Below the pieces are notes generated by a model. It was not told where the DNA came from. It worked only from the letters and a program-made list of their open reading frames with translations, and did not search any database. The position numbers were made by a program, and so were the translations under genes. 64,000 nucleotides of DNA from Edaphochlamys debaryana (lineage: Eukaryota; Chlorophyta; Chlorophyceae; Chlamydomonadales): the NCBI GenBank assembly GCA_016858145.1, contig JAEHOE010000165.1, positions 185,778 through 249,777 on the forward strand, given 5' to 3'. Of the stretch, positions 3,101 to 64,000 are shown one piece after another; the first letter of the stretch is position 1; every line of letters starts with the position of its first letter.

Positions 3101-4471
3101 TCCTACACGGAGGCCATTGAGCTGCTGGAGGGCGTGGTGGCATCGGGCAAGAAGCAGTTCGAGTTCAAGGTGGGGCTTGGTTGGGCTGGGGGCTTGTGGC
3201 ATGGTGGGGCTGGGGGCAGGGTGCATGGGCCCTCCAGTTGTTTAGGCGGCGGGATAGAATTAGTTCAAGTTCCAAGGTGCGAAATCGCAAGGAGGGTTTG
3301 GGGAAGGTGGAGGGCACGGCGGGAGGCTCTGGCGACGCCTTGGCTGGATGGCACCACGACTTCCGTCCTGGGCCCCCCCTGCGTGCCCACCCGTCCCCTC
3401 CCTGCAGGTGGAGTGGGGCATCGACCTGCAGACCGAGCACGAGCGCTACCTGACGGAGGAGATCTTCAAGCAGCCCGTCATCGTGTACAACTACCCCAAG
3501 GTGGGGGGAGGCCAGACCCGCGCTCATGGGGGGAGGGAGGAACGGCGGGGCGGGGCGGGGTGTACAACTACGGTACCCCAAGGTGGGGGACAGGGAGGCG
3601 GCTGGAGACAGGGGGGGGGGGGGGATGGAGGGGCAAAAACAAGCACTGGCACTACCTTACTGTGGGGGGCCTGGTCTTGGCCCTCCCCGTACGTACACCT
3701 CGTGCTCCTGCACCTGCTCATGAACCCCCTCCCCTCCCCTCTCTCCCCTCCACCCGCCCAACCCACAGGAGATCAAGGCCTTCTACATGCGCCTGAACGA
3801 CGACAACAAGACCGTGGCGGCCATGGACGTGCTGGTGCCCAAGGTGGGGGTGGAGGAGGGGAGAGGGCGGGGAGAGGGGGCGGACAAGGGAAGAGGATAG
3901 GGGGCGACAGGCCATCGGGGGGGGGCGCCATGAACGTGCTGGTGCGCAAGGTAAGGAAAAAGATGGGGCGCAAAAAGGGTGTGAGGGTGTGAGGCATGTT
4001 CGTGTGGCTGCTGATCACTCCGCATCCCATCAACTCCGGCCCCTGCCCAACCCCATCCCTATCCCCCAGGTGGGCGAGCTCATCGGCGGGTCCCAGCGCG
4101 AGGACCGCCTGGACGTGCTGGAGCGGCGGCTGGGGGAGTCGGGGTGAGCGGGGGCAGGGGGGGCGGGGTGGAGGCGGACCAGGCAGACCCGGCGCAGGGG
4201 TGTTTGCTGGTTCTTCCAGGGCGTGTCGCCGTGCTCCGTGTTGCCCGAAGTCGCTCTCCCCTGACGTTTCGTCTTCCCGCCGTCCGCCCCCCCCCCCCCC
4301 AGCATGGACCTGGCCGCCTACGAGGGCTACCTGGACCTGCGCCGCTACGGCACCGTGCCCCACTCGGGCTTCGGCCTGGGCTTCGAGCGCCTCATCCTCT
4401 TCGCCACCGGCCTCGACAACATCCGCGAGGTCATCCCCTTCCCGCGCTGGCCCGGCAACGCCTCCTACTAA
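179..4471 (+). CDS. Asparaginyl-tRNA synthetase, 5' end off window
   Basis: Class II aminoacyl-tRNA synthetase charging tRNA-Asn. Exons read from splice sites and frame: 179-301, 535-638, 857-962, 1227-1294, 1427-1537, 2899-2980, 3074-3169, 3408-3500, 3769-3843, 4070-4143, 4303-4471. Seen: the segment [20 protein letters not shown] followed by [10 protein letters not shown] (motif 2 region), and [15 protein letters not shown] (motif 3 ATP-binding) close to the C-terminal [11 protein letters not shown] and stop TAA at 4469-4471. Exons 179-301 and 535-638 encode an Ala/Lys-rich helical segment (starting [13 protein letters not shown]) that resembles the WHEP-type insertion of plant cytosolic AsnRS. 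The plant-type stretch [20 protein letters not shown] follows. AspRS and LysRS are less likely because this block order is typical of AsnRS. The start codon, any targeting peptide and the anticodon-binding domain lie left of the window. Intron 1538-2898 hosts five snoRNA-like elements. Confidence 0.93.
1738..1839 (+). ncRNA. Box C/D snoRNA-like element, AsnRS intron copy 1
   Basis: Box C TGATGA at 1751-1756 and box D CTGA at 1826-1829 are enclosed by a perfect 7-bp terminal stem, GAGACGT (1738-1744) with ACGTCTC (1833-1839), the kink-turn layout of box C/D snoRNAs. Inside is TTCACCTTGGAGA, the reverse complement of the conserved 25S/28S rRNA segment TCTCCAAGGTGAA. It is followed by a small CGGC/GCCG hairpin and a C'-like TGATAA. 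The host intron is spliced from the + strand, so processing from the AsnRS intron is the likely route. The methylated nucleotide cannot be fixed because the D' box is not clear. Confidence 0.8.
1938..2040 (+). ncRNA. Box C/D snoRNA-like element, AsnRS intron copy 2
   Basis: Close paralogue of copy 1. Box C TGATGA 1951-1956, box D CTGA 2026-2029. The terminal stem is CAGACGT (1938-1944) with ACGTACTG (2033-2040), one bulge. The rRNA-complementary block TTCACCTTGGAGA and the C'-like TGATAA are intact. Sequence between copies is unrelated except near the stems. Confidence 0.78.
2112..2212 (+). ncRNA. Box C/D snoRNA-like element, AsnRS intron copy 3
   Basis: Box C TGATGA 2127-2132, box D CTGA 2199-2202, weaker terminal stem GCAGTCGT/ACGTCTG. 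Antisense block TTCACCTTGGAGA conserved. The hairpin loop between the halves differs (GGGCCC...GGCC), which fits drift of an unconstrained spacer. Confidence 0.75.
2341..2437 (+). ncRNA. Box C/D snoRNA-like element, AsnRS intron copy 4
   Basis: Box C TGATGA 2353-2358, box D CTGA 2425-2428, short stem AGTC (2341-2344)/GACT (2434-2437). Antisense block TTCACCTTGGAGA and C'-like TGATAA conserved. Confidence 0.73.
2597..2697 (+). ncRNA. Box C/D snoRNA-like element, AsnRS intron copy 5
   Basis: Box C TGATGA 2614-2619, box D CTGA 2684-2687, stem GCCGC (2597-2601)/GCGGC (2693-2697). The inter-box hairpin is shortened to CGGCTTCGCCG. Antisense block TTCACCTTGGAGA conserved. Last copy before the 3' splice site at 2898. 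Confidence 0.75.
3560..3590 (+). repeat. Degenerate copy of upstream AsnRS exon end plus donor
   Basis: The end of exon 3408-3500 (encoding VYNYPK, then the donor GTGGGG; 3483-3508) reappears here about 77 bp into the intron. It has a 4-base insertion and the same AAGGTGGGGG donor-like end. Confidence 0.85.
3927..3955 (+). repeat. Degenerate copy of AsnRS exon end plus alternative donor
   Basis: Copy of 3820-3850, which encodes AMDVLVPK and its donor. Here it reads AMNVLVRK and ends in AAG|GTAAGG, a better donor than the original. It lies in intron 3844-4069 and could compete for splicing. Confidence 0.85.
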
Positions 4472-6213: not shown

Positions 6214-9200
6214 TCAAGCGCTGCCCGCCTCGCTGGCCTCCTCCTCCGTGTCCTCCTCCTCCACCGACGGCTCCTTCAGCTCCACGTCCTCCACGTACCA
6301 CCGCTCGGCGCTCTTGAAGTACGTGGCCTTCTCCAGCATCAGCAGGGCGATCTGGTCCGACTCCTCCTCCAGTGGGAAGAGGAAGCGACGGACGTGCATC
6401 TGGACAGCGGGTCAGCGCGGGGGGTTCAGAGCGAGCGGCCCGCAATAATGGAGGGCGAGGAAAGCAACGCAGCACATGAAGGAAGCAACCCTCGCACACA
6501 CACCGGCTAATCACCGCGCCCACGATTCTCAGGCTCATGCGAGCAGCCCTTCACACACCTGCTTGGCCGCCCGCGCACCGCTGCGCGCTCCAGCGTAAGC
6601 GGCGACGGCGGCAGCGGCGGTGGCGGCGGTGGCAGCGGCCGTGGCAGCGGCCGTGGCGGCGGCGGTGGCCAGAGACAACAGCCCGGCGGCACCACCGGTG
6701 GCCGCCGCGTCCCCCCTGTCCGCCGTCGCCGCTGCCGCCGCCGGGCCGCCGCCGCCGCCGCCCGCCCGCCCGGCGGGCTTGCGGGCCCGCTTGGGCCCGC
6801 TGGCGGCTGAGCCGTCGTACGGGCTCTCGGCCTGGTCCTCGTCCTCGTCAGCATATGCGTCCACCTGCGACGCCAGGCCCTCCGTGTCCTCCTGCAGGTC
6901 GTCCTGCCGCTTGGCCTCCTGCGTGAATTGCTTGAAGATCCCCACCTGCAGGGTCAAGGGCCAGCGAGGGGGGACGATGTGCGGGAAAAAACGGGGGGAT
7001 AGGAAGGAGGGCGGAGGCCCAGCGCCCAGAGCCCCGAAAGGAGGGCGTGCATCTCGTCGCATGGTAGGTGCTGGCAGCAGCTTAGGCAGGTTTACCAACG
7101 CCCACCAGGCTCCCTCACGCCCCACTCACCTGCCGGTAGTATTTATGCGTCACCACATGGCACACGTTGTCCTTGTACCGGATGCGCGTGCCCTCGCCGC
7201 TGCGGTTGAGCCGCACGCCGCGCCCCAGCTGCTGCGCGTAGGAGCCCACCGCCTTGATCTTGCGCAGCACGCCCACCACGGACACGCGGGCCTCGTCAAA
7301 GCCCTCGCCCAGCACCTGCGGGTTGCGGTGAGGGTAGCGGCCAGACAGAGGGTGGCGAGGGACCTACGGAAAGGACCCAAGGAGAGACTTGACCCTGTCC
7401 CTGGCCCAACGCAGCTGCACAGCACGCCGTAGCCAAGCATAGCCCCCGCAGCTCACAGTTCTTTGGCAGGAGCATCTCTAGCCCAGGTCACCCCTGCAGT
7501 CCTGCGGCGCATGCAAAAGTTCAGAATGCGGTGCGTGCTCACCGCGTCGTTGATCAGCACGTCGAAGCCCTCGTCTAGGTTGTTGGAGCTGAAGCGCCGG
7601 AGCAGGTCGTCCCGGTGGCGGTGCGACAGCTTTCCCGTGATCACCTCCGCGCGCATGGTCTGCAGGCGGGCAATGGCAGGATTGGCAGCCCCGCGCTCAT
7701 CATAACCTCGTCCCTCCTCGTCCTGCTCACCCGCCGCCCCATCTTGATCTTGGCATCCACGATTGCGTCACGCAGGGCCTTGCCGTTCTCCAGGCCCCTG
7801 ACTGAGATCAGGGCCCGGTGCGGCACCTCGGAGCCGCTGCGCTTGGCCTCCAGCAGGTGCGCCACCACCTGAGGTGCGGCAAGGATTGGGGGGGAGTGGG
7901 CGGGTCGATCGAGTGTGGGGTGGTGCCAGCAGGGGACAGCGAAAACGTGGCAGGAAGCTGCATCTATCGTATAGGTGAAGCAGGGGAGCTCCTCACCTTG
8001 ATGGCCTCCAGCTGGCACAACAGCTCGTCCGGCTCGGACTCCGACCCGGACCCGGACTCGGACCCGGACTCCGAGTCGGACTCGCTGCCGGAATCCGAGT
8101 CGACGGTGGGCCGGTATCCGCACACCTCCAGCATGACCATCTTCTGCGTGCACGCAAGGCCAGGGGCGGCCGCAGCGAGGGGCCGCATGCAGCCTCAGAA
8201 CTGTATGTGGGACTGTGGGGCAGCATTCCGCACTCACGCACATGCCCATCCGGGACGGGTTGTCAAGCCATGAATATCGCAGGCAGGAGACCCGCAGGCA
8301 GGTGCGTGCTGTGAGATGAGGGTCCACCATGCCCGCCCCGCATACCGTTACACACCTTGACGAACGGGGCCCACGGGCTGGCCCCCGTCGGGTGCAGGCA
8401 GCTGGCGCATGGCGTTGCGGAGGGTGAGGGGCGTCAGCTTGACTTCCACGGTAAAGTCCGTGAGGCCCTTGATGCGGTCAGGCGTGCCTGCAGTACGGCA
8501 GAGCATTAGGTGCGTGAAGCGGCAAGCAACCGTGAGGAAGGATACCAGGGTGGACTGTCACAGGCAAGCACGTCTGACATCAGGCCACACAAAGACCCCT
8601 TGACCTACCGGAGCGGGACGGCGTGGCCCCCCGGAAGCCAGGCCCCCAGGGAAGCCTCGCTCTATCTGTGCCTCTCTGCAGCAGGCCACACGGAGACCCC
8701 TTGACCTACCGGTGCAGAAGGCCACGAAGGGTTTCCGGGTGATGCCGTTGGCCGTCCACTTGACAGACCCCAGAGTGTCCTGGATGAGCCGCCAGGTCCG
8801 GGCCGGGATGTGGTGGCCCTCATCAAAGATAATGAGGTCGAAGAGGGGGGGCCCGCCCTCCTGGGGAGCATGGGAGGGCAAGGAGGCGGAGGAGATCAGG
8901 TTTCGTCGAGGGTTCAGGGGCACGGCAGGTAGCAGGGCCAGGCCGCACGGCAGGTAGCACGGGCCCACCTCCACCATCTTCTTGCTGGTCTCGAACAGGA
9001 CCTGCAGCCACTCGCTGTACTCCTCCGGGTTGCGCGGCTTGCGCTTGCGGCCCGAGCTCCTGCGGCCAGCAGCGTGGGACACACGTACGGAGCGGGGGGT
9101 CACAACGCAGAGCAGCAGAGGCCAGAGGTCACGCCGGAAGCCATCTGTCCCCATGAGAGCCAACGGAGTCCGATATCCACAACCTACGTGCTGGGACCCG

Positions 9201-16361: not shown

Positions 16362-19300
16362 ATGGCGGAGCACAGGTCTCCCAGCCACAAGCGCCAGCGC
16401 ACGGGCTCAGAGGTCCCCCGCCACGAGCCCGGCAAATCCTTCAACGTCCCGGGGCTGGTGGTGCGCGAGCACACCTTTACGCTGCCGCTCGACCACAATG
16501 CCCAGCCCGGCAGCCGCTACGATGGGCAGACCATCCAGGTCTTTGCCCGCGAGCTCATGTCTCCCACCCGGAACGAGAACCTGCCCTTCCTCGTCTACCT
16601 GCAAGGTGCGCAGCCGTGCACAAACGCACACCTGCACCCTGCTCTCTCCTGCCCTTGCCCTTGCCCTTGCCCTCCCCTCCTCCCTGCCTCCCACCTCCTC
16701 CACGCTCCTCCTGCCCGACCCACATCGCCCCCCCTCTCCCTCCCCCCTCCCTCCATCCCTCACCCCTCTCCCTTCCTCTTTCCCCCACTCCTCACCCAAC
16801 CCCAGGCGGTCCGGGCTTCGAGGCGCCCCGGCCCACGGACGCCTCCATGTGGATCAAGGCCGCCCTCTCCTCCCACCGCGTGGTCCTGCTCGACCAGCGC
16901 GGCACGGGCCGCTCCGCCCCCATCACCACCACCAACCTGGCGGCACGGGGGAGCCCGGAGGAGCAGGCAGACTACCTGGCGCTCTTCAGGTGCGGCTACC
17001 AGGGGGAAGGGGAACTGGGGGACGAGATTACGCGAAAAGCAAGGCCAGCGAAGTGCAGACCCCGGTCCTACCAGGGGGGCACGAAGCGAAAGGGGCCAGG
17101 TGTTGGGTTACCGGAGGTTGGAGCGCTTGACGGCCTAATGGGAGGAGCGGACAGGCTACCTGGCGCTGTTCAGGTGGGGGGTGGGCAGTTCGGCGCTGTT
17201 TGGGTGGGGCTGGCCGGGGAGGTGCGAGGCGGTGTCACGGCGACAGGTGTCGGTTAACTGGTGCTGGAGCCTGCCCGTGGCTTTCGCGCGCGGCAGGGCC
17301 GGTTGGCAACTCCGTTCGGGACGTGCCAGCCCTCCGGCTGGGATGCCAGGTCTCCCTGTCCCTGCTGACCCTTGCCCTCCGCCCCTCCTGCCCCCCACCT
17401 GCCCCCACCCCCACCCCACCCCAGGGCGGACAGCATCGTTCTGGACTGCGAGGCCATCCGCAAGATGCTGGTGCCGGCGGTGTCGTTCGGGGGCAAGTGG
17501 GCGGTGCTGGGGCAGTCCTTCGGCGGCTTCTGTGCCACCACCTACCTGTCCCTGGCGCCCGAGGGTGAGAGCCTGTTGGGGAGGGAGGGGAAAGGGGGAG
17601 GCGGGGACGGGGAAGGGGAGAGGAGGGGCCGGGATGGCCATGGGGTGGGGTCAGGAGAGCAGGGGAGAGCAGAGCAAGCACACAAGGCATCCTTGCTGCA
17701 TCCGGCATCCTTGCTGCATCCTTGCTGCATCCGGCACAGTTCCGTTTCCTGCACCTGGCGGTGATGCTTATATGAAAAGCGATATCGGACCAAACCAAAG
17801 ACGACAACACAACCGGACTTTGTCCACCTGAGCCTGTGCTGTGCGGTACAAGACAACACATCTGCACGATGTACGCAGAACGCTCGCTGTCGCTCGCTAT
17901 GGGGATGGGAGAGGTAGATGTATCGGCGTAACTCGCCCTACACTGCGGAGAGTAGTATCGCAAGCCTACTTGACCAATGGCGATGACGCTCACGTGAAAA
18001 GCGATATTGGACTAATGCACTGACGATATCACAACCCGGGCTGTGCCCCCCTGAGCCAAGTTGTGTTGTGTAGGGAGGGCTGTGTCGTACTCACGTGATA
18101 CGGGCGCTACGGTAGGAGCGCTGCAAAGGCCGAGGGTTAACCCACGGCAACTGGCGATGACGTTCACATGATAAGCGATATCGGACCAAAACCATTGACG
18201 ATATCACAGCCCGGGCTCTGCCCCTGAGCCAAGTCCTTTCGTTGTTTTCTGTTTGTTGATGGGGATTGGGTTAGGTGCATGCCACTTACGGAGGGTCAAC
18301 CCACGGCAGCTGGCGATGACGCTCACATGAAAAGCGATATCGGACAAAACCGGTGACGATATCACAACCCGGGCTCTGCCCACCTGAGCCACAACGCCAA
18401 GACCTCAACACCACGCACGCTGGACGGTTGGACTGAGGGGGTAGCGGTCGGAGCGTGAAAGCTGAAAGCTCGACCACCACGCACGCTGCCTCGCCTCATC
18501 GTCACACCCACTTCTCCACCACGCCCATGCCAAACCCCCCCCCAACCCCTCCAACCCCCCCCCAACCCCGGTCCCCCGCATGGAGGTGCTCGTGACCGGG
18601 TCCTGAACTCAGCGGGGCACCCGTCACAAGAACAGTAGAAACGCACCCCGCCCCGCCACCCCACCAACACCAACCCCACCCCAACCCGTACCCCCCCCCA
18701 ACCCCAGGCCTCATGGAGGTGCTCATGACCGGCGGCCTGCCCCCCGGCATCCGCCTGCCCTGCGCCGCCCCCACCGCCTACGCAGCGCTGCACCGCCGAG
18801 CGCTGGCGGCAAACGCCAAGTACTACGAGCGGTGAGGGGAGGGAGGGGGTGGGTGGGTGGGAGGGAGGGGGGTGGCTTCAGTTCTAAGTCTCTGAGCTTG
18901 GGCTTGCGTGGCTGGTCACCAGCAAGGGGCCTTGGGGCCTTAAATCGCTGGGCTCCGCAGAGGCTTGGCTTACCAGCGCCCAGCGGGCTTTCGCTAACCG
19001 CTCCTGGCCCCTTCACAGACCCTCTCGTCCCTCCTCTCCAACCCCACCACGCCCAGGTTTCCCGGGGACGTAGAGGTGGTGCAACGCATCGTGCGGCACC
19101 TGGCGGCGCAGCCCGGGGGCGGCGAGGCGCTGCCGGGGGGGTCGCTGCTCACGCCCCGCCTCTTCCAGACGCTGGGGCTGTCGGGTGGGTTGCTGCGCCC
19201 TGCGTGTTTTCTTGGGAAAGGGCGGGGGGCCGCCGTGATTGGGATATGGCGGCAGGGGCGTGCGTGGCGCTGAGCAGGGTGTGTTAGGGCGAGCGACAAG

Positions 19301-21014
19301 GGCCCCGGCGCGACCCCACATTGTCCAGCGTTGCCACTGGGCACTGTTGGCTCTCGCTTGTTCAGGAAACCGGCGAAATCTACATCTAACAGCTCACCTC
19401 ACCCAACCCAAACCCCACGCCCCTCCTCCCTGTCACCCCCCCCCCCAAGGCCTGGGCACGGGCGGCTCCTTCGAGCGGCTGCACTACCTGCTCGACTCCT
19501 TCTTCGACGGGGAGGGCAACATGACGCCCTCCTTCGCCAAGGTCGATAGCGGTTGGCGGCTGGCAGTTGGCGGTTGGGTGCCGTGGTTGGCGGTTAGGGG
19601 TCTGCGTGCGTGGGTCGCGATGCTCCACGTGCTGAATACCGGTGCACCCCGCCGCACCGACCGAAGCCAGCCCCACGCAGTACGCCCTTCGCGCCTGAAC
19701 CTTCACCCTTCACCCCCCCCCAGGCCTTCGAGTCGTGGCACTCGTGGGACACCAACCCCCTCTACGCGCTGCTGCACGAGCCCATCTACTGCCAGGTGGG
19801 GGTGAGGGCGACTGGAGGAAGTGCAGCGGCAGGCTGGCGCGGGTCGCGTGAGGTGCCGGTGGGGGGGCGTGGAGGGAGGGGATACGCGCGCGTCGCTGCG
19901 CTGCGCTGCCCCGTGCACGGGCACAGGAATGAGCTGCGGCAGGCTGGCTTGAGCTCATATCGGGGCTGGGACTACCGAAGTCTGCCCCTCTCCGCTCTCA
20001 ACCATCCTGCCCAACAACACGCTCCAGTCCCCTTCAACCGCGGAATGGCGGTGCGTGCAGTCTGCCTCACCCGGTGCCCTACCATCCCACCCCTCCAAAC
20101 CCAAACAACGGGGCAGGGCAACGACTCCGCGCCCCGCTGGGCCGGCATGTGCTCATGACGGAATCTAGTTATAGGCTATTGGAATCTTTCTAACCTCCGC
20201 ATCAACCCACCCCAACCTCACAACGGCGCAGGGCAACGACTCTGCGAGTCGCTGGGCCGCGGACCGCGTGCGCGACAGCGAGGAGTTCTCGGCCGCATTC
20301 GACGCCGTCGCGGCGGCCAACGAGGGGCGGCCCGTCATGTTCACGGGGGAGTGCGTGTACAGGTGGGGGCGAGGGGGGAAGCGGCGTGTGTTTCGTGCCC
20401 TTGTGCCGTGCCCAAGGGGCCGTGCGTGCAGGGCGGTGCCAAGGCCTTGCGGCGGTAACACGGTGAGGCACGCATGTGCAACGGTCCAACAGCCCAACCC
20501 CGCGTAACCCGTACGGCAGGTTCATGTACGACGACGTGGCGGCGCTGCGGCCGTACAAGGCTACGGCAGATGTTCTGGCCGAGCGCTCGTCCTGGTCGAT
20601 GCTGTACGAGCCCTTGGTGCTGGCCTTTAACCGGGTGCCCGTGGCGGCGCTGTCGTACTTCGAGGATCTGTACGTCGACTACCGCATGAGCGAGGTGGGC
20701 GCATGAGGGATGGAACGAGTGGGGGTCATAAAAAGAAGGCCTTGCCCAAGGGCTCAAGCCCTAAAGAGGCTGCTCACACCCTCCTCAACCTCGCTGCCAT
20801 AACTCTTCCCCATCCCTCAGTCTCACTCAAACCCAAACCAAACCAACCCCGCCCAACACAAATCCCCTGCTGCCGACCCCAGGAGACGGCTGCCTCCATC
20901 AAGGGCCTCAAGCTGTGGGTCACCAACGAGTACCGCCACTCCGGCATTCGGGACGACGGGGTTCGCATCTTCGACCGACTGCTGGGCATGGCCAGGAACG
21001 CAGTCTTCGACTGA
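16362..21014 (+). CDS. Proline iminopeptidase-like alpha/beta hydrolase (peptidase S33)
   Basis: Approximate exons: 16362-16604, 16806-16989, 17424-17563, 18710-18832, 19056-19183, 19450-19541, 19722-19795, 20231-20361, 20519-20695, 20881-21014. Family hallmarks seen: the oxyanion segment GGPGFEAP, the strand/turn VVLLDQRGTGRSAP, nucleophile elbow GQSFGGF (catalytic Ser), a candidate acid in EDLYVDYRMSE, and the candidate His in WVTNEYRHSGIRDDG. The C-terminal ETAASIKGLKLWVTNEYRHSG is typical of prolyl aminopeptidase-like enzymes in plants and actinobacteria, which remove N-terminal proline. Start: ATG 16362 gives MAEHRSPSHKRQR; the in-frame ATG at 16137 would add a possible organellar presequence. 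Intron 17564-18709 hosts four snoRNA-like repeats. Substrate is not proven by sequence. Confidence 0.9.
17141..17176 (+). repeat. Degenerate copy of hydrolase exon end plus donor
   Basis: Near copy of 16958-16993 (encoding EEQADYLALFR and its donor), about 180 bp into the following intron. It again ends TTCAGGTGGGG. Confidence 0.87.
17755..17836 (+). ncRNA. Box C/D-like element, hydrolase intron copy 1
   Basis: TGGC/GCCT ends enclose TGATGC (17762-17767, box C-like) and CTGA (17828-17831, box D). Core ATGAAAAGCGATATCGGACC is shared with the three other copies. The most diverged copy in its 3' half. No rRNA target recognised. Confidence 0.45.
17975..18061 (+). ncRNA. Box C/D-like element, hydrolase intron copy 2
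   Basis: TGGC (17978-17981) directly precedes GATGA (17982-17986), and CTGA (18051-18054) directly precedes GCCA (18055-18058), so a 4-bp stem abuts both boxes as in C/D RNAs. Box C reads CGATGA rather than TGATGA. The internal TGACGAT could be C'. Confidence 0.48.
18150..18234 (+). ncRNA. Box C/D-like element, hydrolase intron copy 3
   Basis: TGGC 18152-18155, GATGA 18156-18160, CTGA 18224-18227, GCCA 18228-18231. The upstream 20 bases (GGGTTAACCCACGGCAAC) are also duplicated before copy 4, so the duplication unit is larger than the element. Confidence 0.48.
18308..18394 (+). ncRNA. Box C/D-like element, hydrolase intron copy 4
   Basis: TGGC 18311-18314, GATGA 18315-18319, internal TGACGAT, CTGA 18384-18387, GCCA 18388-18391. 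The region before box D contains GGGCTCTGCCC, which can fold on itself, so its guide role is uncertain. Confidence 0.48.
18578..18602 (+). repeat. Degenerate copy of hydrolase exon start, upstream
   Basis: GCATGGAGGTGCTCGTGACC here matches the start of exon 18710 (TCATGGAGGTGCTCATGACC, 18711-18730). It lies 130 bp upstream within the intron and is preceded by similar CCAACCCC tracts. Confidence 0.85.
20103..20150 (+). repeat. Degenerate copy of hydrolase exon start with acceptor
   Basis: CAGGGCAACGACTCCGCG followed by CGCTGGGCCG copies the acceptor and first codons of exon 20231 (GNDSASRWA). It lies 117 bp upstream in the same intron. Confidence 0.85.
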
Positions 21015-37420: not shown

Positions 37421-37471
37421 GGGCCCGTATGGGAGTTCACGGCTGATGCCCTTGGCCATGCAACAATAACA
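37421..37471 (+). repeat. Dispersed 51-bp repeat, copy 2
   Basis: Inverted relative to 26948-26998. Begins 9 bases past the CLP1 stop codon, so it is probably in the 3' UTR. Confidence 0.8.
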
Positions 37472-39078: not shown

Positions 39079-39761
39079 CTGCCGGCTGCAGAGAGCGGGA
39101 ACTGGGCCGGGGTGCTGTTTGGGCGGGATCGATATGGACCGTGCCGGTGAGGCTGGCGTGTTGCGGGGGCGAACCTGCCTGGGGCGGGCCTCGCGCTTCG
39201 TGGACAAATGAAGGGCCGGGGCCAGCCGGGGTCTTCGGGTGTGATGCGAGGTGCGTTGGGGCGGGTTGGGGCGAAGCTGCCGCGCCTTTGCCCGCATGGC
39301 GTGACTGGAGTCCGGAGACTCCCGGCCTCGAGCGACCGCTGCCCTTTCCGTCTGGGGACAGGGGGGAGCGGCTGCGCGGGAATTTGTTGCGCGGGAGGTC
39401 GTCCGGAGTCTGGGAATGCCCAGTGATCGACTCAACTTCAACCGTGCTGCCGAACCCGCCAACCGGTCTGACGGCTTTCAAGGATACAAGCCCAGGCACA
39501 TCATATGCCATCATGTCAGCATGCAGCAGCAGGGTGAATGGGGCGGGGGGTAAGGGCCGTGACACCGGTGCAGGTCCGGCTGTGGCCCGATCGTTTGCCC
39601 GTGCACCGCGCCCGTGACGGTCCGGCCCCGAGCTTCCCAGCGCCCGCAAGCCTGCTTTCCGTTTGAGCAGTAGCCTGCCCTTGAATGCACAGGGTCAAGT
39701 CGCGGGCCGCAGGCCGACAAAACGTGGACGCGACGGGGCAACAGCCGGGGTCACGTCGCGC

Positions 39762-40065
39762 GCGCTCGCGCCCGCCGCAGTAGCGACCCAGAGCTCGGGC
39801 GAGGGACACCGCATCGCCATTGAGCCATCACAGCTGCTTGCCGAGGCTAGGAAGCTGCGCCGCTGGCCTCCCTTAGGGCGGCTCCTCGGCTGGAGCTCGC
39901 CCCCGGAACCAGTGGTGGCTTTTGGATCCGGCGCATCGACCCGGACATGCGCCAGCACATGCCTGCCTGGTGCTTATCACCGCCCGCGCACGCGCACAAA
40001 CATACCACCACGCTTGCTGCAAGGGAATGCACTTGGCACACGCCAGTGCCTCGCCCCAAACACAC
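39762..40065 (+). mobile_element. 306-bp dispersed repeat, copy 2
   Basis: Intergenic partner of 35149-35454. Ends 149 bp before the start of the small gene at 40214, so it could lie in its promoter. Confidence 0.7.
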
Positions 40066-48762: not shown

Positions 48763-51700
48763 ATGGGCCGCGCGCGGGCCGCGGAGGGCCTTCGCGCTGA
48801 ACGCGACTGCATGGCGCGAATGCTCAGCCGCCAGCGCTGCACCGCACAGGCGCCACCAGCGCCATCCGCGCCTAGTTCAGACGATCCGGGCAACATCAAA
48901 CGGATCAAACTCGTGTTGCCGGACAGCTGTGACTTAAACCCATGCGTGCAAGCCCCGTCCTTGCGGGGCTCAGCGGGCGTTAAGTACAACGTGCCGGAGG
49001 CGCTCTCGCTCGTGCTTCGGGACCTCAAGGTGAGAACAGCATACCCCCGGTTTGGCACTGCTGTGTTTCGGCACGCCGGCGCCCACTCCTCCCCCTCTCC
49101 CCCCGGTTGCAGAACCCGGACACCTGCGACGATGAGGGACTGAGCGCAGCTGTCCAGGCGGCAGCGGGACGATACTTCCAGTCCTTGCCCGCCGTGAAGG
49201 CGCGGCCCCGCCTCTTGCAGCCATGCGTCGCTCACTTCGTGCAGCGGGTCACGGACATACGATTCCCGTTCAGGGACTTCCTGTCCCGGCCTCCGGCGGC
49301 GGCGGACTCAGGCGGCGAGGGCCCTGGCGATGCCCCCACAGCGGGCGTGGAGATGGAGGTAAGAGTTGGCTTGCAGCGCAGGCGGTTGCACTTTATGCTC
49401 GCATAGCCAGTCCACAGTCCTGGCCACCCCACCTTACTGCCAGCGATCTGCCCCTTCCCTCATGCGCAACGCCTCACGCGGCCTGCCTCCGCCCCGCAAT
49501 TCCCCTCCTAGGGCTCTGGCCTCGCTGCCGCTGCTGTGGCTGAGCCGGCAGCATCCACGCACGGGCCTACGGCGCAGGGGCTTGCGGCGGCGGGCGAGGA
49601 GAGGGAGGTGAGAGTTGGCTTACTGCATTGTCCTCACGGCCTGCTTTCTGTTGGCCCTCCCCACCCAATCACAGCGAACGTTAGTATATGACACCATGCT
49701 CCCTTGCATGGTGGTATGTGTAGGTGACGTGCGAGTTTGAGAGAGGGCTGGCTGAGCTGAGGGCGGAGTGCGACGTGGAGCCTGGGCTAAGGACGACTGA
49801 GGAGATCCAGAGGTTAACGGCGGAGATGGACAAGCTGGCGAAGGCGTTGGCCAGCACTGGCAAGAAGAGACCCCGACCCCTAAAGGAGCGGCTCGGACCC
49901 CTGCCCGGACAGGTGAGCAACTTATTGCCCTTTGCTCTGTTGCCAGCCACACGGTTACTACCTTCTTTTCAACCACAGACATGGAGAGAGAACCTGGAGC
50001 TTGCGGCCGAAGCCGCAGCAGCCGCACGAGGAGAACCCTCCAAGGCTACGCCAGAGCACATTCCCTACGTGACCGCACCCTTCCTCCTGGAAACGGATGC
50101 CGACCTGCAGAGGGAGGTGAGCGCCCGCGCACGGTGTTGCCCCATCTGCCTCCTTGCTGCAAGCTCTTTTCCCGGTCCATAATGTCTCCCCATCTCACGT
50201 GCGCTGTTCCCGCCCGGAACTTCCCTCCTCAGGGCTCTGGCCTCGCTGCCGCTGCTGTGACGGAGCCGGCAGCATCCGCACGCACGGCCACGGTGCAGGG
50301 GCATGCGTGCGGCGAGGGCTCTGGCGGTGTCCCCACGGCGGGCGAGGAGAGGCAGGTGAGCGTGGCACTGGGAGAGCACGTTCAGCAACAGCCCCTCCTC
50401 GGCTCACTTGCAGCTGGGTCTTGACCCCCTCCATCTTGTCCAGCACCTCACATGTCTTGTCACCCGCCCTACACTGCCCTCCTCAGGCCTCTGGCCTCGC
50501 AGGCCCGTCGAGGACGGCCGTGCAAAAGCCAGGACTCAGAATCAAGCTGCGGATACCCGGACGGGTTCCCCTACAGGCCATCCAGGCGCCGCTCCACGCG
50601 TTTGATGGAGACGGCGTGCTCGGGGGCGGCGGAGGCGGAGGCGGCGGTTCTGGTGGGGCACCCACCTCCGCCGCCGATGGCGCCGAGGGCGGCGAAGGCG
50701 GCCTCGGCGGGGCAAACCCCTTGGCCCTGGCCGTTGCCGCCGCCGGCGCCTCGGAGCTCGGCGTTGCCGCTCAGCAGCCGGGAATCCAGCCGCCACCGCC
50801 CCACGCGCGCGAGGGGGAGGGTGTGCTCGGGGGTGGCGGAGGCGGAGGCGGAGGCCCTGGGGGCCCCGTTGCTGCCGCCGCCGCCTCCGCCTCCGGCGCC
50901 TCGGAGCTCGGCGTTGCCGCTCAGCAGCCGGGAATCCAGCCGCCACCGCCCCACGCGCGCGAGGGGGAGGGTGTGCTCGGGGGTGGCCGAGGCGGAGGCG
51001 GAGGCCCTGGTGGGGCACCCACCTTCGCCGCCGCTGGCGCTGCGGGGGGGTTCGTCGCCGGTCCTCCGCACCTGCCCCTCACAGCGCCTCGGGCTCGCGC
51101 CCTGGGACCCCCGCAGCAGGGCTTCCAGGAGCCACCGCTCCCCCCGCCTGACCGGGGCGGTATGCTCGAGGGCGGCGGAGGCGGCGGAGGCGGGGCAAAC
51201 CCCTTGGCCCTGGCCGTTGCCGCCGCCGCCGCCTCCGGCGCCTCGGAGCTCGGCGTTGCCGCTCAGCAGCCGGGAATCCAGCCGCCACCGCCCCACGCGC
51301 GCGAGGGGGAGGGTGTGCTCGGGGGTGGCGGAGGCGGAGGCCCTGGGGGCCCCGTTGCTGCCGCCTCCGCCTCCGCCTCCGGCGCCTCGGAGCTCGGCGT
51401 TGCCGCTCAGCAGCCGGGAATCCAGCCGCCACCGCCCCACGCGCGCGAGGGGGAGGGTGTGCTCGGGGGTGGCGGAGGCGGAGGCGGAGGCCCTGGTGGG
51501 GCACCCACCTTCGCCGCCGCTGGCGCTGCGGGGGGGTTCGTCGCCGGTCCTCCGCACCTGCCCCTCACAGCGCCTCGGGCTCGCGCCCTGGGACCCCCGC
51601 AGCAGGGCTTCCAGGAGCCACCGCTCCCCCCGCCTGACCGGGGCGGTATGCTCGAGGGCGGCGGAGGCGGCGGAGGCGGGGCAAACCCCTTGGCCCTGGC

Positions 51701-53890
51701 CGTTGCCGCCGCCGCCGCCTCCGGCGCCTCGGAGCTCGGCGTTGCCGCTCAGCAGCCGGGAATCCAGCCGCCACCGCCCCACGCGCGCGAGGGGGAGGGT
51801 GTGCTCGGGGGTGGCGGAGGCGGAGGCGGAGGCCCTGGTGGGGCACCCACCTTTGCCGCCGCTGGCGCTGCGGGGGGGTTCGTCGCCGGTCCTCCGCACC
51901 TGCCCCTCACAGCGCCTCGGGCTCGCGCCCGCGACGGGGGCGGCGGGCTTGACGGAGGCGGCGGGCTCGACGGTGGCGGCGGCCTTGGCGAGGTGTTTGC
52001 AGCCGCCACCACGGATGCTGCCTCAGGGCTCGGCGGCGGGGAGATGCCTGACTGGCCGGGTGGTCCCGCTGGTGTGGATGGCTTCGATGACCTCCTCGGC
52101 ATCAACGGTATGGAGCTGCTGTCGCCGCCTGGCATGGGGCCCATGACAGGCCTCCTGCTCGGCAGCCCATCTTCATCCGCCGATGGCCAGACCAGGCAGC
52201 AGGAAGCACCCTTGACGGCGTATGCCGCCGAGACCACGGGGCTCCCCGCAGGAGGAGGCCAGCAGCTGGAGCAGGTGGACGAGGAGCCTGAGGCAGGCGG
52301 CATCCGGAACCCCACAGCGGAGGTCATCGAACTCGCCATGCGGGTACCGGTGAAGCCCACGCCGGGCGTTCCACCCTGCATCTCATACGCGGCTTCTCAG
52401 ATCACCCAGGGGCTGAAACAGACGCGAAAGCCGGCGTTCTTCCGCACCGAGCGGTGCGCAGAGCTGCTATTGCAGTTCCACGGCCTCCCAGTCCCGCCTC
52501 CGGCCTGTGCCCACCTGCCGCACATGATGCAGCTCGAGAACGCACAACGGGGCAAGTGGCGGAGCAAGCTCTACGCCGTCAACACCGCCCTCTCCAACGC
52601 CCGCGCCCTTGAGACGTCGGTGCTGGTGCCCAATAGCGACATCATCGCTATGTCCCGGAGCGGCCTGGTCAAATGTTGATGGGACGTCGAAATGCAGGGC
52701 CGGCAGCTGTCCAAGATGTCCGACAAGCAGCGGCAGAACTTCACGGCGTACGTGGCAACATTTATCGATGCGCCAGAGGAGAAGCAGCAGGAGCTCGCCA
52801 ACGCCGCGTGAGTCTCTGCACTGGGGGGTCATTCAACCGCATGCCAAGGTGGTTCAAGTCCTTTTGCGTTCCGTTCGTTCCTCCTGATGTCCATGTGCCC
52901 CTGTCCCTCATCCACAGGCGCTCTGTGGACCCGGCCAAGTTCGACCGTGAGCTGGCCGCCTGCAAGGTGCCGGAAGCACGAGAGCAGCCACTCCCCCTGC
53001 CCCCGCCGGCGGCTGCGGCGAGGGCGGAGGGTGGGGCTGCGGCCGCGCCGAGGGAGGCGCCCAGGCTGGGGGCGATGGATCCGCCCGCACCCCAGCGGCT
53101 GCAGCTGGCCCCGGCGCGAGCGGTGACGGCGGCGGTGGGAGCTGCGCCGGCGGTGACTGCGGCTGCGGCCGGGGCAACGCCCAGGCCCGGAACCTTGCTG
53201 CCGGCCCCGCCCTGGCAGCCGCAGCCCGGCACATTGCAAGCATGGCCGGCGGCGGGTGTGGCAACGGCGCCTATGCCGGGGCTGCCCGCGCTCCCGCGCC
53301 CAGCCTGGCCGCCACAGCAAGCGCCAGCACACGTGCAGGCGGAGGCTGAGGGGGCCGCAGCGGCTGACGGCGCGGCCTTGGCCGAGGGAGCTGCAGCGGC
53401 GACTCGGGACGTGGCGATGACGGAAGACGCTGTCCCGGCAGCTGTCCCGGCTGCCCCGGCTGCCGGAGCGGAGAGCGATGGCGAGGCCGCAGACAACTAC
53501 AACGACTGGCGTAGATGCAGGGCGGACAAGCCGGCAGTAATCGCTTTCTTTGAGGCGGACATTAAGGAGCGGAAGGTGCGGGCGGTCAAGGCGGAGCGGA
53601 AGCAGGGAAAAGCCGCCGGCATTGCTGCCTGGCGGGCATCCAACCAGAATGCCAGGCTGCAACGGCTAAGTGACGCATGTCTCACCAAGGCCTGGGACGA
53701 GGCGTACGACAACATCACAAAACCATTCAACATCAAAGCCAGAGAGCTCGAGAAGCTGCTGGCCGCAACGCCATTCGATTGGGCGACGGCCATGCAGCTG
53801 GCCCAGGCGGTGACGCACCACGCCAGCAACCAGGCAGAGCAGAAGAGGGCAAGCAGCCTCAAGAAGAAGGTGGACTCGCGGATTGAGTAG
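48763..53890 (+). CDS. Transposon accessory protein, Gly/Pro repeat-rich, with in-frame TGA
   Basis: Exons 48763-49029, 49113-49358, 49512-49607, 49724-49912, 49979-50116, 50233-50355, 50487-about 52804, 52919-53890; the first six introns are phase 0. The N-terminal part reads KRIKLVLPDSCDLNP and NVPEALSLVLRDLK. Exons 3 and 6 are paralogous (GSGLAAAAV...). Exon 7 carries a large Gly/Pro/Ala repeat. After it come a conserved-looking ITQGLKQTRKPAFFRTERCAELLL..LPHMMQLENAQRGKWRSKLYAVN, then an in-frame TGA at 52677-52679 (LVKC-stop). The same frame continues as WDVEMQGRQLSKMSDKQRQ and across the next intron (ELANAARSVDPAKFDREL) to a lysine-rich C-terminus, TAG 53888-53890. No known domain. Its role in transposition is inferred only from location. 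It may be a nonsense-mutated gene or a readthrough gene. Confidence 0.65.
50740..51950 (+). repeat. In-frame Gly/Pro/Ala tandem repeat array
   Basis: Five copies of a block starting ASELGVAAQQPGIQPPPPHA, at about 50749, 50898, 51238, 51382 and 51726, are embedded in a larger, nearly exact duplication of about 490 bp (51001-51240 against 51490-51730). Period is a multiple of three, so the long frame survives. Confidence 0.92.
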
Positions 53891-54320: not shown

Positions 54321-57024
54321 TTTGAGCTGTGGTCACCGACGTGACAGCAAGAAGAGAGGGGTGGGGCAGGGCCTTCGTTGTCGCTGTGAGCCCGCTGCCC
54401 GCTGTCCCCGTGACCTGTATGTTGAAGCTGCCCTGCCGCGACTACATCCCAGCCCCAAACCCAAACCCTGGCCTGCACTGCGGGCCGCCCGCTCTCCCCT
54501 CCCACCGCTGTGCGTGCACCTGCGGCCCCGCCGCCCTCCCACGACCGACGTGCTCAGCCCACGCCTCAGGCCCCACCCTTCCAGACACACGCCTCACACG
54601 TCCCCTTCGCTTTGGCACGCCAGAGGGATTTGATGGGAGCGTTTATGATGCATTAGGGGCCTGGTTCCCAACCCTAAGCGGCCTGCCACCCTCCTTCGTC
54701 TCTGTCGCTTGCAGGTGCGCGCTCACGCATGATGGCGCCATACAAGACTGGAGCACACTTCGCGGCTGGGGGCCCAGCTCTACAACTCCGCTAGGTGGGC
54801 GGAGCGGAGGAGGGAAAGGAGTGACGCAGTGCATGGTGGAGGAGGCCGCAGGCGCCCATGCCTGGCCCAAGGAAAGGCTGCCTGGCCGCACCCGCACCCC
54901 AGCCCCCACCCCAACCCCGCACCCTAACTTGAGCTGCAGGCAGGCCGCTGTCGCTGCCTTATGCCAATGACGAGGGCCGCAGCAGGGTACTCGTCGTTAG
55001 GCACAACTGTGGTTACAAGGGGCTTAGAACCTTGACCCTCGTCGCCCGAGCATTTCCTCACGCGGCTCAGTCGCACAGTGGACCCACTACCCAGCAGCTT
55101 AGCCTGTAGCCCAGACGGCCATGCCCTAGTCGCATCTCGCCCTGGAGCAGCTAGAACCCTGGTGAGCACGCTGAGGGAGGCTGTCCTCAGTGCGCGCCGC
55201 CCTCGCGGAATGCCTGCAAGACCCCCTCCTTCCTTGCCTAACGCCAAGTGGCGGGGCTGGACGGATCCTGTCAGCTGGCGTGACGCTGCATGCTGTCCGC
55301 TGTTCCCGTGTCCTGTCAACGCTGCCAGCTGCCTTGCCGCACCCGCTGGATGGGCGTGCGTGCATGCAACTAAGGGAGGGCTTGCATCACAACTCATCAC
55401 CATTTCAACCGGAGGTGCAGCGTCCTTTATCCGGCTAGTCGTTTTACCCGTCCGAGATACACTGCACGCTAGCCCCACGTCAGGAGCGGTTACAAGTGCA
55501 ACGGCAGGCCAAGCAGCCACGGCACCCTGACCCTGGCCCAGCCTAGGACCCGGACAGCGCGGACCCTCAGCACAGGCACCCCTGCGGCCTGTGAGAACCA
55601 CCCAAAACAGCGGCAGACGACACCACCAGGCGGAGTGCCTGCACCGGAGCACGTTTGGTCTAAGTCTCTAGCGAACCACGGCAGCGCGCAGCAGACCGGA
55701 GACAAGGAGTAGCGCTCCGAGCCACCCAGGCCCGCAGGCCACGCAACGAAGACACAAGGCACAGAGCGAAGCCCACACAGGGGCGGCACCAAACCACAGG
55801 AAACGAGAAAGGGGCACGACAGAACACTCACGACGGGCCGGGAGGCGAGCCCACACTGGAAACACTCGCAGACAGAAAGCACCAGTGGTCAGAGGGCACA
55901 CGGCCCCAGCCACGAGGGCGCTGGGGACGTAGGGAGAAGGACCGAAGCCGAGCCCAGAAGTCAGCAACCACGCTAACCCCCACGCGCAGCACTACACCCG
56001 CGCCACTCGCGAGGCCTCCCGAGCGCTATACAGGGCCTGACGCCCGTGCTCCCGTGCTGTAACGGCAGCCAGGCAGACGACGTCCGGCACCCGTGGGCGC
56101 ACGCCGGTTTCAGGGGGCACCAAGGCCAGCCGGCGAAGCCATTGACCGCCGGCCGCCAGAAGGGCTCGTTGTGCCAACGAGAGCCTACAGGCCTCAGAAG
56201 GTAAGCGCCTGGCCTGTACGGAGAGGGAGGCGGGAAGCAAGGGAGGAGGGCTGAGAGCCACGACAGGAGCAAGGCGCGCGGAGCAAGAGACGGCCCGTCC
56301 GCGCCCAGCCCCAAGCACCCTGGCGTCATCCCACCCACGCGCCTGCACCACCCGCCCATGCCCACCTGCCCAAACAAGCACGAGGCACGCAGCAACGCCT
56401 GCCCAGGCCGCAGAAGGTAAGCGCCTGGCCTGTACGGAGAGGGAGGCGGGAAGCAAGGGAGGAGGGCTGAGAGCCACGACAGGAGCAAGGCGCGCGGAGC
56501 AAGAGACGGCCCGTCCGCGCCCAGCCCCCAAGCACCCTGGCGTCATCCCACCCACGCGCCTGCACCACCCGCCCATGCCCACCTGCCCAAACAAGCACGA
56601 GGCACGCAGCAACGCCTGCCCGGGCCGCAGAAGGTATCCGCCTGGCCTGTACGGAGAGGGAGGCGGGAAGCAAGGGAGGAGGGCTGAGAGCCACGACAGG
56701 GAGCAAGGCGCGCGGAGCAAGAGACGGCCCGTCCGCGCCCAGCCCCAAGCACCCTGGCGTCATCCCACCCACGCGCCTGCACCACCCGCCCATGCCCACC
56801 TGCCCAAACAAGCACGAGGTACCCAGCAACGCCTGCCCGGGCCGCAGAAGGTAAGCGCCTGGCCTGTACGGAGAGGGAGGCGGGAAGCAAGGGTGGAGGG
56901 CTGAGAGCCACGACAGGGAGCAAGGCGCGCGGAGCAGGAGACGGCCCGTCAGCGCCCGGCAGAGCTCCACGCTGCCGCCCCACCCACCTGGACCTGGATG
57001 CCCGCCCACGTGCGGGGTGCGTGG
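54321..57024. other. Transposon interior between its two genes
   Basis: 3' flanks of the convergent accessory and transposase genes. It contains the 217-bp minisatellite and weakly repeated CTGTCCGCTGTTCCCGTG-like blocks (54395, 55297). No protein-like frame recognised at 54321-56190. Confidence 0.5.
56195..56960 (-). repeat. 217-bp minisatellite, about 3.5 copies
   Basis: Unit boundaries marked by CAGAAGGTAAGCGCCTGGCC at 56195, 56411, 56628 and 56844. Period 216-217, not a multiple of three, so long frames on the minus strand are artefacts of the array. Confidence 0.93.
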
Positions 57025-61361: not shown

Positions 61362-64000
61362 ATGAGTAGACTGCGGCTGCTGCTCCTGCTCGCGGGGCTT
61401 GCGAGCAGCGTGACAGCGTGCAACTACACGGATGGAGCGTGCACGGCTGCGTTGGTGCGAGACACACTCGCGGCATACTCGCAGAGGTAATTCGCCCTAG
61501 AACGCACAGCGTTTACTGCCTGGGAGTGATGATGTGCGCGAGGATACGAGAGCGTGTTGATAAGCGCGCCAGGGTGTTGGCTGCGCACGAATGCGTACCC
61601 CTTCAAGCTTTCAAGCCTGTCTCTCCCGCAGCGGCGTGGTGGTACAGGATCCAGGAGCCTTTAGCAGCGCGCTTGCGACAGCAGTCGCGGGCTTTGGGTC
61701 GCGCTGCTTGGGCATTACGCAGAGCGTTCTACGGGTAAGCTCGCTGCTGCCCTCGCGTCGCTCGAGCCCTGTGGGACGAGGAGCAACTGCAGGGAGGGAG
61801 GGCAGGGGAGGGTATATCGAGCTTGGGAGCGGGAGAGAGTGACCTGCCGTGGGGCCGGGTGCCGGGGGTCGAGCTTGGGAGCGGCAGAGAGTGACCTGCC
61901 GTGAAGCCGGTGAGTGAGGCACCGTGCAGCCTCAACGCAAGACTGCCCCGCCGCCCCTGCTTGTGCCACAAGGAGCAACGGCGCAGCCTGGAGCAAGCCC
62001 GCCCAGCTCTCCCCAGTCCCCTGCCCGCGACCTCATCCCGGCCTCCCACACCACGCCTCGCGCCCGCCCCAACGCTGATCCCTGCTGTGCTCCTCACCCC
62101 GTCCTTGCCGCCCGTTCGCATCCGCTGCGCAGGCTGCCCGCATGCTCGTGCCAGCGGGCAATGAACAGCTCATGAACTCAATCGGACAGGTGCGTTACTG
62201 GCAGTAGCCCCGCACGGCACGCACCTCCCCTCCTTCGGCGTGAAACAAGCTGCGTCCAGGCGTGCTGCACCATTGGCCAACGTTGGAACGAGGCCTGGGC
62301 TCGGAACGGCCGCTGAGCTCCCGGAGCCATGGATGCACGGGAGGGCGGTTGCTGACTCTGCGCTCAGGGCTCACATGGAAGGGACCGGGCATGTGAATGG
62401 AGCGTGGAACAAAGGGCGCGCCGGGACGACCAGGCTCAGCCCCGGAACCCCTTTGCCCCGGCTTACCGTACCTCACCCACCCTTTCGCCCCTACCCGCCC
62501 GGAGGACGTACCCTCTGCAGCCCTAAACTTCCCCCCTCCTCCTCCCCCTCCCTGTCAGGCCTTCACCACCTCCACCGGCTACCGGGTGGACTACACGTTC
62601 ATGGAGCTGCAGCGCATCGCCGAGGAGGTGGCCTTCCAGCTGCAGACCAACGGTGGGGGGAGGGGGAGGGGGATGTTTGGGAGGGGGAAGGGAGGGATAG
62701 GGAGGGGGGGAGTGAGGTGGCGTTCCAGCTGCAGACCAACGGTGGGGGGCAGGGGGGAAGGGGATGTTTGGGAGGGGGAAGGGAGGGGGAGGATGGGGGG
62801 GGAGTGAGGTGGCGTTCCAGCTGCAGACAAAAACGGTGGGGAGGGGGCAGGGGGTGATCGTTCGACGTTCTCGGGAGCGGAAGAAAGAGCAAAGAGGGGG
62901 CAGCAGCAAGGGAGATGGAGGGGGAGGGGGAGGGGGGGGGGGGGGGTGGTGAAGTACGGAAGTAGGGTTTGAAGATACGCGTGATGCCATGCTGAAGGAC
63001 TCGGGAACGATACACGCTCGAAGGGGCTTGGGAAGGGGCATCCCCGAGGACCAAGGGAGGGTACATCCCCAGCGGGACTTGGGGAGGTGACTCGCGAGCT
63101 GCAGACCAACGGTGGGGGGAACGAGGAGAGGGAGGGGGGCAGAGTGAGGGAGGTCGCGTTTCAGCTGCAGACCAATGGTGTGGGCCTATCGGACACTAAG
63201 CTGGGGGCCTGCCAGCCGACGGGCCGAAACCGAACCCCGCGACCCCCCTTCATGCCCCCCTCTCATCCTCGCTCTCCGACTCACCCTGGATCCCGTCGTT
63301 CCCATGCAGTGTCGTTGTACGACGCCTGGATCCTGGATGTGATCAGCAGCGAGGTGGCTCTGAGATCCAACGCGGTTGCCGGACTGGAGGGCGTGGCAGG
63401 AGCGCGGCGGGGAGCGCGGGACGTGCACCCGTGAGCGGGCGCTGGCGGTTGGGAGTTGGCCGTTGGCTTATTGCCATTTGCAGTTGCGGGGGCTGACGGT
63501 TGGGCTAACGACCGGGGGGCTGCATATGTCTTGTGTTCCCAGACCCCGGCGCACACACCAGTGCATGGTGGTCGCCACACATACGTAGGCCAACGGTACA
63601 GGCCCTGGTAACATCTGGCGCCCTGCCTTGTACCGAAAACCCTGCCAGTATTTCCACGAGTTCGCAGCGACGTACCAGAACCGGAGTACGGCGGTCGTAC
63701 TGTCCGGCATGGTGCCGCTCCTGTACTGGCGCAAGGACATCCTCGCCCGCTTCAATATAACCGCCGCGCCCGCCACGTGGGACGAGATGCTTATGGTCGT
63801 ACGGATGCTGAACGGCTCGGACTTCAACGGTGGGCGGGAGGGGACCTTCCCGGCGTGCTGGGTCCTGGCGGCGTCCCCGCTTGTGATTCTCTGCCCCCAG
63901 CGCTCACGCTAACCCGTGTCCCCTACCCGTCCGGCCCCTCCCCCGACCCAAAGGCGATGGTATCCCCGACGCCCCCTTGTGCTGGCGTGCCGTCGTACGG
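61362..64000 (+). CDS. Secreted/periplasmic-type solute-binding-domain protein, 3' end off window
   Basis: Exon 61362-61486 encodes a signal peptide, MSRLRLLLLLAGLASSVTAC, then NYTDGACTAALVRDTLAAYS. Further exons: 61632-61734, 62133-62189, 62559-62652, 63310 onward, about 63643-63831, and from 63953. They encode GAFSSALATAVAGFG, AARMLVPAGNEQLMNSIGQ, VDYTFMELQRIAEEVAFQLQ, SLYDAWILDVISS, then VVLSGMVPLLYWRKDILARF and WDEMLMVVRMLNGSDFNG joined to DGIPDAPLCW. The YWRKDIL...P.TWDEM pattern is that of bacterial extracellular solute-binding proteins (family 1). In chlorophytes such domains often form the extracellular part of receptor-like nucleotide cyclases, but nothing downstream is visible here. 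The exon between 63310 and 63643 is incompletely resolved. The upstream ATG at 61351 opens only a 4-codon frame. Confidence 0.75.
62700..63175 (+). repeat. Four copies of an exon end plus donor in the next intron
   Basis: The end of exon 62559-62652 (GTGGCCTTCCAGCTGCAGAC then CAACGGTGGGGG) recurs at about 62716, 62808, 63098 and 63155, each with CTGCAGAC(C/A)AA and most with a GGTGGGG donor-like end. Separated by purine-rich tracts. Confidence 0.92.

Follow-up and report, generated by a model that had tools for sequence, protein, structure and literature searches.

Local same-strand copies of coding-exon edges in introns and 3' flanks of Edaphochlamys debaryana

This stretch of Edaphochlamys debaryana DNA raises the question of why short pieces of coding-exon edge reappear in the adjoining introns and 3' flanks, and what kind of process left them there. 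A sequence-only reading had named fifteen such positions and offered local tandem duplication growing introns, intron gain or decoy splice sites as explanations. We analysed the window, i.e., the 64 kb at the end of a contig of 249,777 bp (in an assembly of 141.9 Mb and 502 contigs; the published genome is described as 142.14 Mb with 67.1% GC in 527 contigs and 19,228 genes, PMC8226300), together with 28 ten-kb samples from other contigs (L002 to L029). Genes were called with a purpose-written two-strand HMM, trained iteratively on the window and the samples, which over these 344 kb gave 72 predicted genes with 485 introns and 970 intron sides.

Two gene models were compared with published proteins. 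HYH03_017352 (473 aa) corresponded to one of them with 100% identity and coverage, and the longer HYH03_017355 (425 aa) was a 100% match over 99% of the other (354 aa). Six of the seven proteins submitted to Pfam gave hits (the C-terminal part of AsnRS, PF00152; helicase; alpha/beta hydrolase; malate dehydrogenase, MDH; CLP1; and glycine-cleavage T protein), while the gene fragment near 62.6 kb, previously called solute-binding, gave none. On the sense strand, introns of at least 260 bp started G-rich (G made up 56% of bases 1 to 20 and 33% at 180 to 200) and ended C-rich (54% C over the final 20 bases). GC donors made up approximately 8% of the trained donor matrix.

All fifteen positions turned out to be local same-strand copies of coding-edge DNA. 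The features at the AsnRS, helicase, hydrolase and EEP genes are listed here by window position and strand, with the position named earlier in brackets where it differs from the start of our alignment.

3139-3169, + strand: AsnRS exon end with a weak echo, boundary after 3276, 27/35 identical; absent from the earlier reading
3484-3508, + strand: AsnRS exon end and donor (exon 3408-3500)
3560-3588, + strand: echo, about 82 bp away, of 3484-3508; carries an insertion of 4 bases and has its boundary after 3582; below the scan thresholds and recognised by reading the sequence
3820-3845, + strand: AsnRS exon end and donor (exon 3769-3843)
3927-3952, + strand: echo of 3820-3845, 24/26 identical, 107 bp away; G-rich single-copy spacer
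4449-4688, + strand: AsnRS stop edge (CDS end 4471) and two more copies in the 3' flank at about +84 and +164, so that three units follow one another at about 84 and 80 bp (named as 4535)
8679-8715, - strand: helicase donor region (exon 8710-8860), 6 bp of exon and 31 bp of intron
8578-8614, - strand: echo of 8679-8715, 89% identical, 101 bp away (named as 8571)
16957-16995, + strand: hydrolase exon end and donor (exon 16806-16989)
17141-17179, + strand: echo of 16957-16995, 34/39 identical, 184 bp away
18507-18599, + strand: echo of the acceptor and start of hydrolase exon 18708-18831, about 133-140 bp upstream, AG lost (named as 18578)
20088-20144, + strand: echo of the acceptor and start of hydrolase exon 20232-20362, 115 bp upstream; single-copy spacer (named as 20103)
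26634-26926, + strand: EEP gene 3' end, 144-bp segment (26634-26777) and its 69% identical copy (26788-26926) at offset 154; the source stops about 10 bp before the CDS ends (named as 26848)

The MDH, CLP1 and remaining loci of the window carry the following features.

29574-29604, - strand: MDH exon end and donor (exon 29583-29672)
29498-29526, - strand: MDH echo 1, 26/26 identical including the donor, 76 bp away (named as 29511)
29401-29428, - strand: MDH echo 2, 27/28 identical, 177 bp away
34168-34200, + strand: CLP1 exon end and donor (exon 34112-34194)
34292-34349, + strand: CLP1 echo 1, 124 bp away, single-copy spacer (named as 34302)
34505-34556, + strand: CLP1 echo 2, 356 bp away, lower similarity (named as 34537)
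35551-35621, + strand: echo of the acceptor and start of CLP1 exon 35710-35856, 109 bp upstream (named as 35595)
36978-37006, + strand: echo of CLP1 exon end 36842-36870 (exon ends at 36873), 136 bp away, donor lost; single-copy spacer
37369-37417, + strand: CLP1 last codons and stop (CDS end 37412)
37500-37548, + strand: copy of the CLP1 stop edge, 131 bp away with 96% identity (named as 37498)
56190-56960, - strand: 217-bp tandem array across exon edges
62625-63184, + strand: exon end 62652 and four more copies at +89, +183, +459 and +525, the first two units sharing a G-rich spacer (named as copies from 62716)

Beyond the positions named earlier, the window held echoes at boundaries near 1153 (weak, 20/23), 3276 (weak, as above) and 37009, in addition to the 217-bp array.

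A sensitive scan, in which 40 exon and 6 intron bases from both sides of each intron served as the query, recovered 39 echo copies in 25 of the 485 introns, i.e., in about one examined intron in twenty. The boundary was reached by 37 of the 39 copies, in agreement with the claim that echoes are anchored there. Only 4 copies were found in 9465 random control pairings, against 39 on the 970 intron sides, which bears out the view that the echoes exceed chance. Chance similarity, low complexity or an assembly artefact is thus scarcely credible as an explanation: introns are indeed low-complexity and G- or C-rich, but most copies carry substitutions relative to their source and two of the gene models equal published proteins over the compared part. 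Orientation was one-sided as well. Local pairs with a start distance below 700 bp and a score of at least 26 numbered 184 on the same strand and 15 inverted.

The sequence-only reading had set its own refutation, namely that exon interiors should be copied into introns as often as edges. Among 124 non-overlapping same-strand pairs, several of which derive from one and the same array, 27 joined an exon edge to non-coding DNA, 28 were non-coding on both sides, 46 were exon to exon and 22 were mixed; a single pair joined exon interior to non-coding DNA, this being the EEP 3' end with its source about 10 bp from the CDS end. Of the exon 30-mers at the very edge, 12 out of 470 at donors and 10 out of 472 at acceptors matched the adjoining intron (score of at least 16), where 0.2 were expected in each case. 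At 30 bp inside the edge the counts were 3 of 429 and 2 of 435, respectively, and from 45 bp on they were 1 or 2. We also aligned exons of up to 600 bp with the adjoining intron on 942 sides, keeping at most six alignments per side for the real intron and two for the controls. Edge-touching alignments numbered 31 on 18 sides, against 0 in the reverse complement and 0 in random introns, in line with the reported same-strand rule. No clear excess of interior matches was seen in this test (21 alignments on 20 sides, compared to 19 on 18 for the reverse complement and 27 on 24 for two random draws per side). Three interior matches were near-identical: one in the L014 array, and two (59/60 and 29/30) in an 85-bp predicted intron of L024 that sits between long exons of a repetitive gene.

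In a uniform ungapped scan (120 exon bases, intron, 120 exon bases; 473 introns, those below 60 or above 1500 bp being left out), the 454 non-array introns yielded 18 edge-to-intron, 8 intron-to-intron, 3 exon-to-exon and 1 exon-to-edge copies, and no exon-interior-to-intron copy; the 18 edge-to-intron copies include 2 from the 217-bp array, which the array rule left unflagged. The claim of edge preference thus survived its refutation test in this sample. Spiked 35-bp copies at 0 and 5% divergence were recovered in 136 to 150 of 150 cases in introns, intergenic DNA and at edges (7 of 12 cells). The 8 intron-only patches outside arrays had offsets of 42 to 122 bp (one being the MDH match of echo to echo), and the duplication process is therefore not wholly edge-specific. 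The idea that donor-side intron interior is copied as often as the edge was rejected, most intron-to-intron copies in the uniform scan lying within array introns (23 versus 8). Echo introns were more frequent in the window (13 of 87) than in the samples (12 of 398; Fisher p = 7e-5), and 5 of the 12 in the samples sit at one locus, L027. This regional excess may reflect either a process that is patchy along the genome or a window that was noticed for its richness.

The echoes fell into two anatomical classes. In five introns, they were contiguous tandem arrays across the exon edge (class T), among them 56190-56960 (217 bp) and 62625-62853 (about 90 bp) in the window and those in L027 (118 bp) and L014 (150 bp). 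The other 20 introns carried 23 spaced patches (class P), in which the median copied piece comprised 18 exon and 7 intron bases at donors and 22 exon and 10.5 intron bases at acceptors. The exon part was 14 to 33 bp long in 20 of the 23, and the copied piece covered a median of 24% of the copy distance. The sequence-only reading had placed copies 70 to 250 bp from their source; locality held, with 17 of 23 patches within 140 bp (61 to 136 bp) where uniform placement would give 31%, but the full range was wider, the remainder lying at 177 to 795 bp. Introns with a patch echo had a median length of 397.5 bp, compared to 181 bp for introns without an echo. The five array introns were left out of this patch median as well as of the patch statistics and the quadruplex and GT/AG figures below.

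Could all echoes be contiguous edge-spanning tandem duplications, in which the intronic part of the unit has diverged past recognition while selection held the coding part? Such duplications clearly occur, as the arrays (217, 118, 150 and about 90 bp) and the stop edges (about 84 and 154 bp) demonstrate, and because the duplicated unit must contain the edge, boundary anchoring and the missing interior sources are explained for free. Same orientation and proximity, as expected of tandem or minisatellite repeats, were found throughout, and the nearest copies in the five array introns showed unit-wide homology. In 17 of the 23 patches, however, the rest of the would-be repeat unit was at null level, with no detectable homology, even where the exon part was 96 to 100% identical (L022 at 117 bp, patch 27/28, spacer score 8.5 versus a null median of 10; L021, patch 26/27, 12 versus 11; MDH at 76 bp, patch 26/26, 9 versus 8). 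By our inference, divergence of intronic copies should proceed at only about double the rate, and the exon parts keep to their narrow size range rather than being spread over the copy distance. The other six patches (109, 112, 124, 133, 177 and 184 bp) had a unit remainder scoring above at least 94% of null introns, where one or two would be expected by chance; a tandem past is possible for these, and since residual homology is what tandem origin predicts, we count it against our own preferred reading. Taken as an account of all echoes, tandem duplication seems to us an unlikely though serious alternative. The earlier proposal that local tandem duplication grows introns is supported as to the lengthening and the edge-spanning arrays, but its plain form does not account for those 17 patches.

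The spacers between source and copy bear on another account, in which a small mobile element forms the spacer and the echo is its target-site duplication. Dispersed repeats were indeed present in two of the ten spacers searched:

37422-37471, + strand: dispersed repeat fragment, family A, with a CAA-rich tail, inside the CLP1 stop-echo spacer (at least 39 further matches, among the best 40 of 227 candidates scored)
16999-17066, + strand: dispersed repeat fragment, family B (at least 41 further matching rows), nested in the hydrolase donor spacer

However, the family B fragment is flanked by its own 11-bp duplication, and without it the hydrolase echo would lie about 105 bp away. The other eight spacers matched only themselves in a search that skips simple repeats (four acceptor spacers, in L020, L021, L013 and window 20140-20210; four donor spacers, in window 3844-3928, 36874-36977 and 34201-34291 and in L022). 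For the spacers tested, this refutes target duplication as a general account, and we regard it as very improbable. Repetition of whole introns, as with introners, was absent among the matches listed for two gene regions with simple sequence skipped, where fragments of dispersed families alone appeared. Donor spacers were also G-rich (donor-proximal G of 0.577 versus 0.456, p = 0.001), and 9 of 12 held a quadruplex motif, compared to 3.6 expected (p = 0.0013) or 4.4 expected from long introns (p = 0.007). For acceptor spacers, neither quadruplex motifs (4 of 7 versus 2.6 expected, p = 0.24) nor C enrichment (p = 0.38) was significant.

Given that a splice site with about 20 bp of exon is usually copied, and at a fairly regular distance, the copies might be decoy splice sites selected to regulate splicing or intron retention. 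GT/AG was kept in 18 of the 23 patches. The pooled patch identity of 640/725 (88%) implies that both bases would survive by drift in about 78% of cases (0.88 squared), so retention matches neutral decay and selection for splice signals is not needed. Moreover, stop-codon edges were echoed in 5 of 45 genes, against 1 of 1980 in a cross-gene control: AsnRS and EEP with long copies, CLP1 and L022 (39/39, offset 43) with close ones, and L008 with a weak one 399 bp away. Start edges were echoed in 1 of 36, weakly. Echoed stop edges and neutral GT/AG retention both speak against selected decoys, as does the presence of an echo in so few introns, and the proposal now appears improbable. An argument for decoy selection from the mismatch gradient (11/250 in the ten edge-nearest exon bases versus 54/292 beyond fifteen) was dropped, since a local alignment may extend too far, into sequence that is unrelated, and GT/AG retention is neutral. 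Intron gain by exon duplication, also proposed earlier, predicts copies at the far end of the intron; such copies were found at just 4 of the 768 wrong-side edges, and three of these lie in array introns, so this explanation is not supported.

We, therefore, prefer to read the echoes as footprints of short-range DNA duplication in or next to the non-coding flanks of coding exons, lengthening introns, and give this reading a probability of about 0.48, i.e., close to even odds. The observations comprise the copies themselves, their common orientation, their closeness to the edge and contact with it, the missing interior sources, the longer introns, the G-rich donor spacers and the neutral loss of GT/AG. 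Mechanistically, the G-rich tracts at intron starts or C-rich tracts at intron ends may stall or break replication, and repair or template switching could then sometimes copy 20 to 70 bp of the tract edge a second time beyond the tract, which would produce class P; other events, those of class T, would be plain tandem duplications across the edge. Within an intron or 3' flank, copies would be near-neutral and add length, and they would remain visible chiefly where one partner is coding and so slow to change. The tight centring on edges could result only in part from such slower decay beside a coding partner, together with selection removing insertions in exons. By our estimate, edge copies and intron-only patches number about 16 and 8 on roughly 27 and 95 kb, respectively, a several-fold edge excess per base that counts against the preferred reading because slower decay explains only part of it.

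A narrower version of the duplication reading, which we find rather doubtful, would be that a recurrent direct-orientation template switch in this alga specifically re-copies the transition between coding sequence and the G-rich or C-rich intron flank (about 20 bp of exon and 7 to 10 bp of intron) past the flank, so that splice junctions give rise to almost exact copies of themselves, seemingly unused, and thereby make introns grow. Microhomology of donor motifs as a guide for the switch was unsupported at six or seven bases: donor hexamers recurred at +50 to 150 in 19 of 291 introns, like exon hexamers (17 to 21 of 263 to 291). Donor five-mers showed a modest excess in the same zone (59 of 291 versus 34 to 48 of 263 to 291), and acceptors showed none. 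Templated end-joining would be expected to yield some inverted copies as well, and none were seen at exon edges, which we count against the preferred reading.

Related processes are known from other systems. In a potato RdRp gene, a tandem duplication across an intron-exon boundary is described as having created a new intron (PMC4974935); as with the echoes, the duplicated DNA spans a splice junction, adds intron sequence and carries splice signals, whereas in E. debaryana an existing intron seems only to have become longer, and the majority of copies are spaced patches lacking homology over the whole unit. According to the same paper, gain of introns by duplication of an AGGT-containing exon segment is a widely cited model; there, too, an intron receives exon DNA, but that model would place the copy of the exon end at the opposite side of the intron, in contrast to the rare wrong-side copies found here. 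In Caenorhabditis elegans, breaks provoked by quadruplexes are reported to be repaired with insertions templated from the break flanks (PMC8654963). The templated insertions and tandem duplications attributed there to polymerase theta at G-quadruplex or other breaks are likewise short flank copies near a G-rich obstacle, whereas the E. debaryana copies are direct only and centred on coding edges, without a demonstrable deletion or break. Short-range template-switch mutations in great apes also involve local re-copying of tens of bases through two switches, but in the model of that study the copying is reverse-oriented (PMC7954356), and edges here show direct copies only. Titles and abstracts, with subscription journals mostly outside the search, held no description that we recognised of edge-centred spaced exon-edge copies. 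Boundary-spanning tandem duplications are already known (PMC4974935).

For genomes this compact, the introns of this algal group are strikingly long, and the genome paper gives their advantage, if any, as not known (PMC8226300). With patch-echo introns about twice as long as those lacking an echo, local duplication at exon edges offers a specific contribution to intron length that can be tested. Near-identical junctions beside those predicted by the gene models also provide a natural test of what else directs splice-site choice. If the template-switch reading is true, the genome would offer many natural experiments in which the spliceosome passes a near-identical junction about 100 bp away.

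Several further repeats were noted. In an MDH intron, 88 bp at 29891-29978 had at least 37 further matches in the genome, 82 to 99% identical, as for a dispersed element with some very similar copies, and a 307-bp piece of a CLP1 intron (35148-35454) recurred with 94% identity about 4.6 kb downstream (39761-40065). The introns at 1739-2693 and 17751-18391 contained five and four spaced repeats, respectively, of roughly 60 to 140 bp. At 50140-50517, a 124-bp acceptor-spanning segment was copied (69%) into the intron downstream of exon 50233-50355, the sole wrong-side echo outside array introns; a predicted gene (48763-53890) has coding repeats of about 480 bp at 50589-52039, rich in Gly, Ala and Pro. 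The array in L027 (1299-2798) consists of 118-bp units, about 97% alike, that repeat an exon edge with its donor and encode a motif that looks ankyrin-like. Finally, predicted exons in L024 (2883-4137) carried internal repeats that were 94 to 97% identical and about 600 to 650 bp apart.
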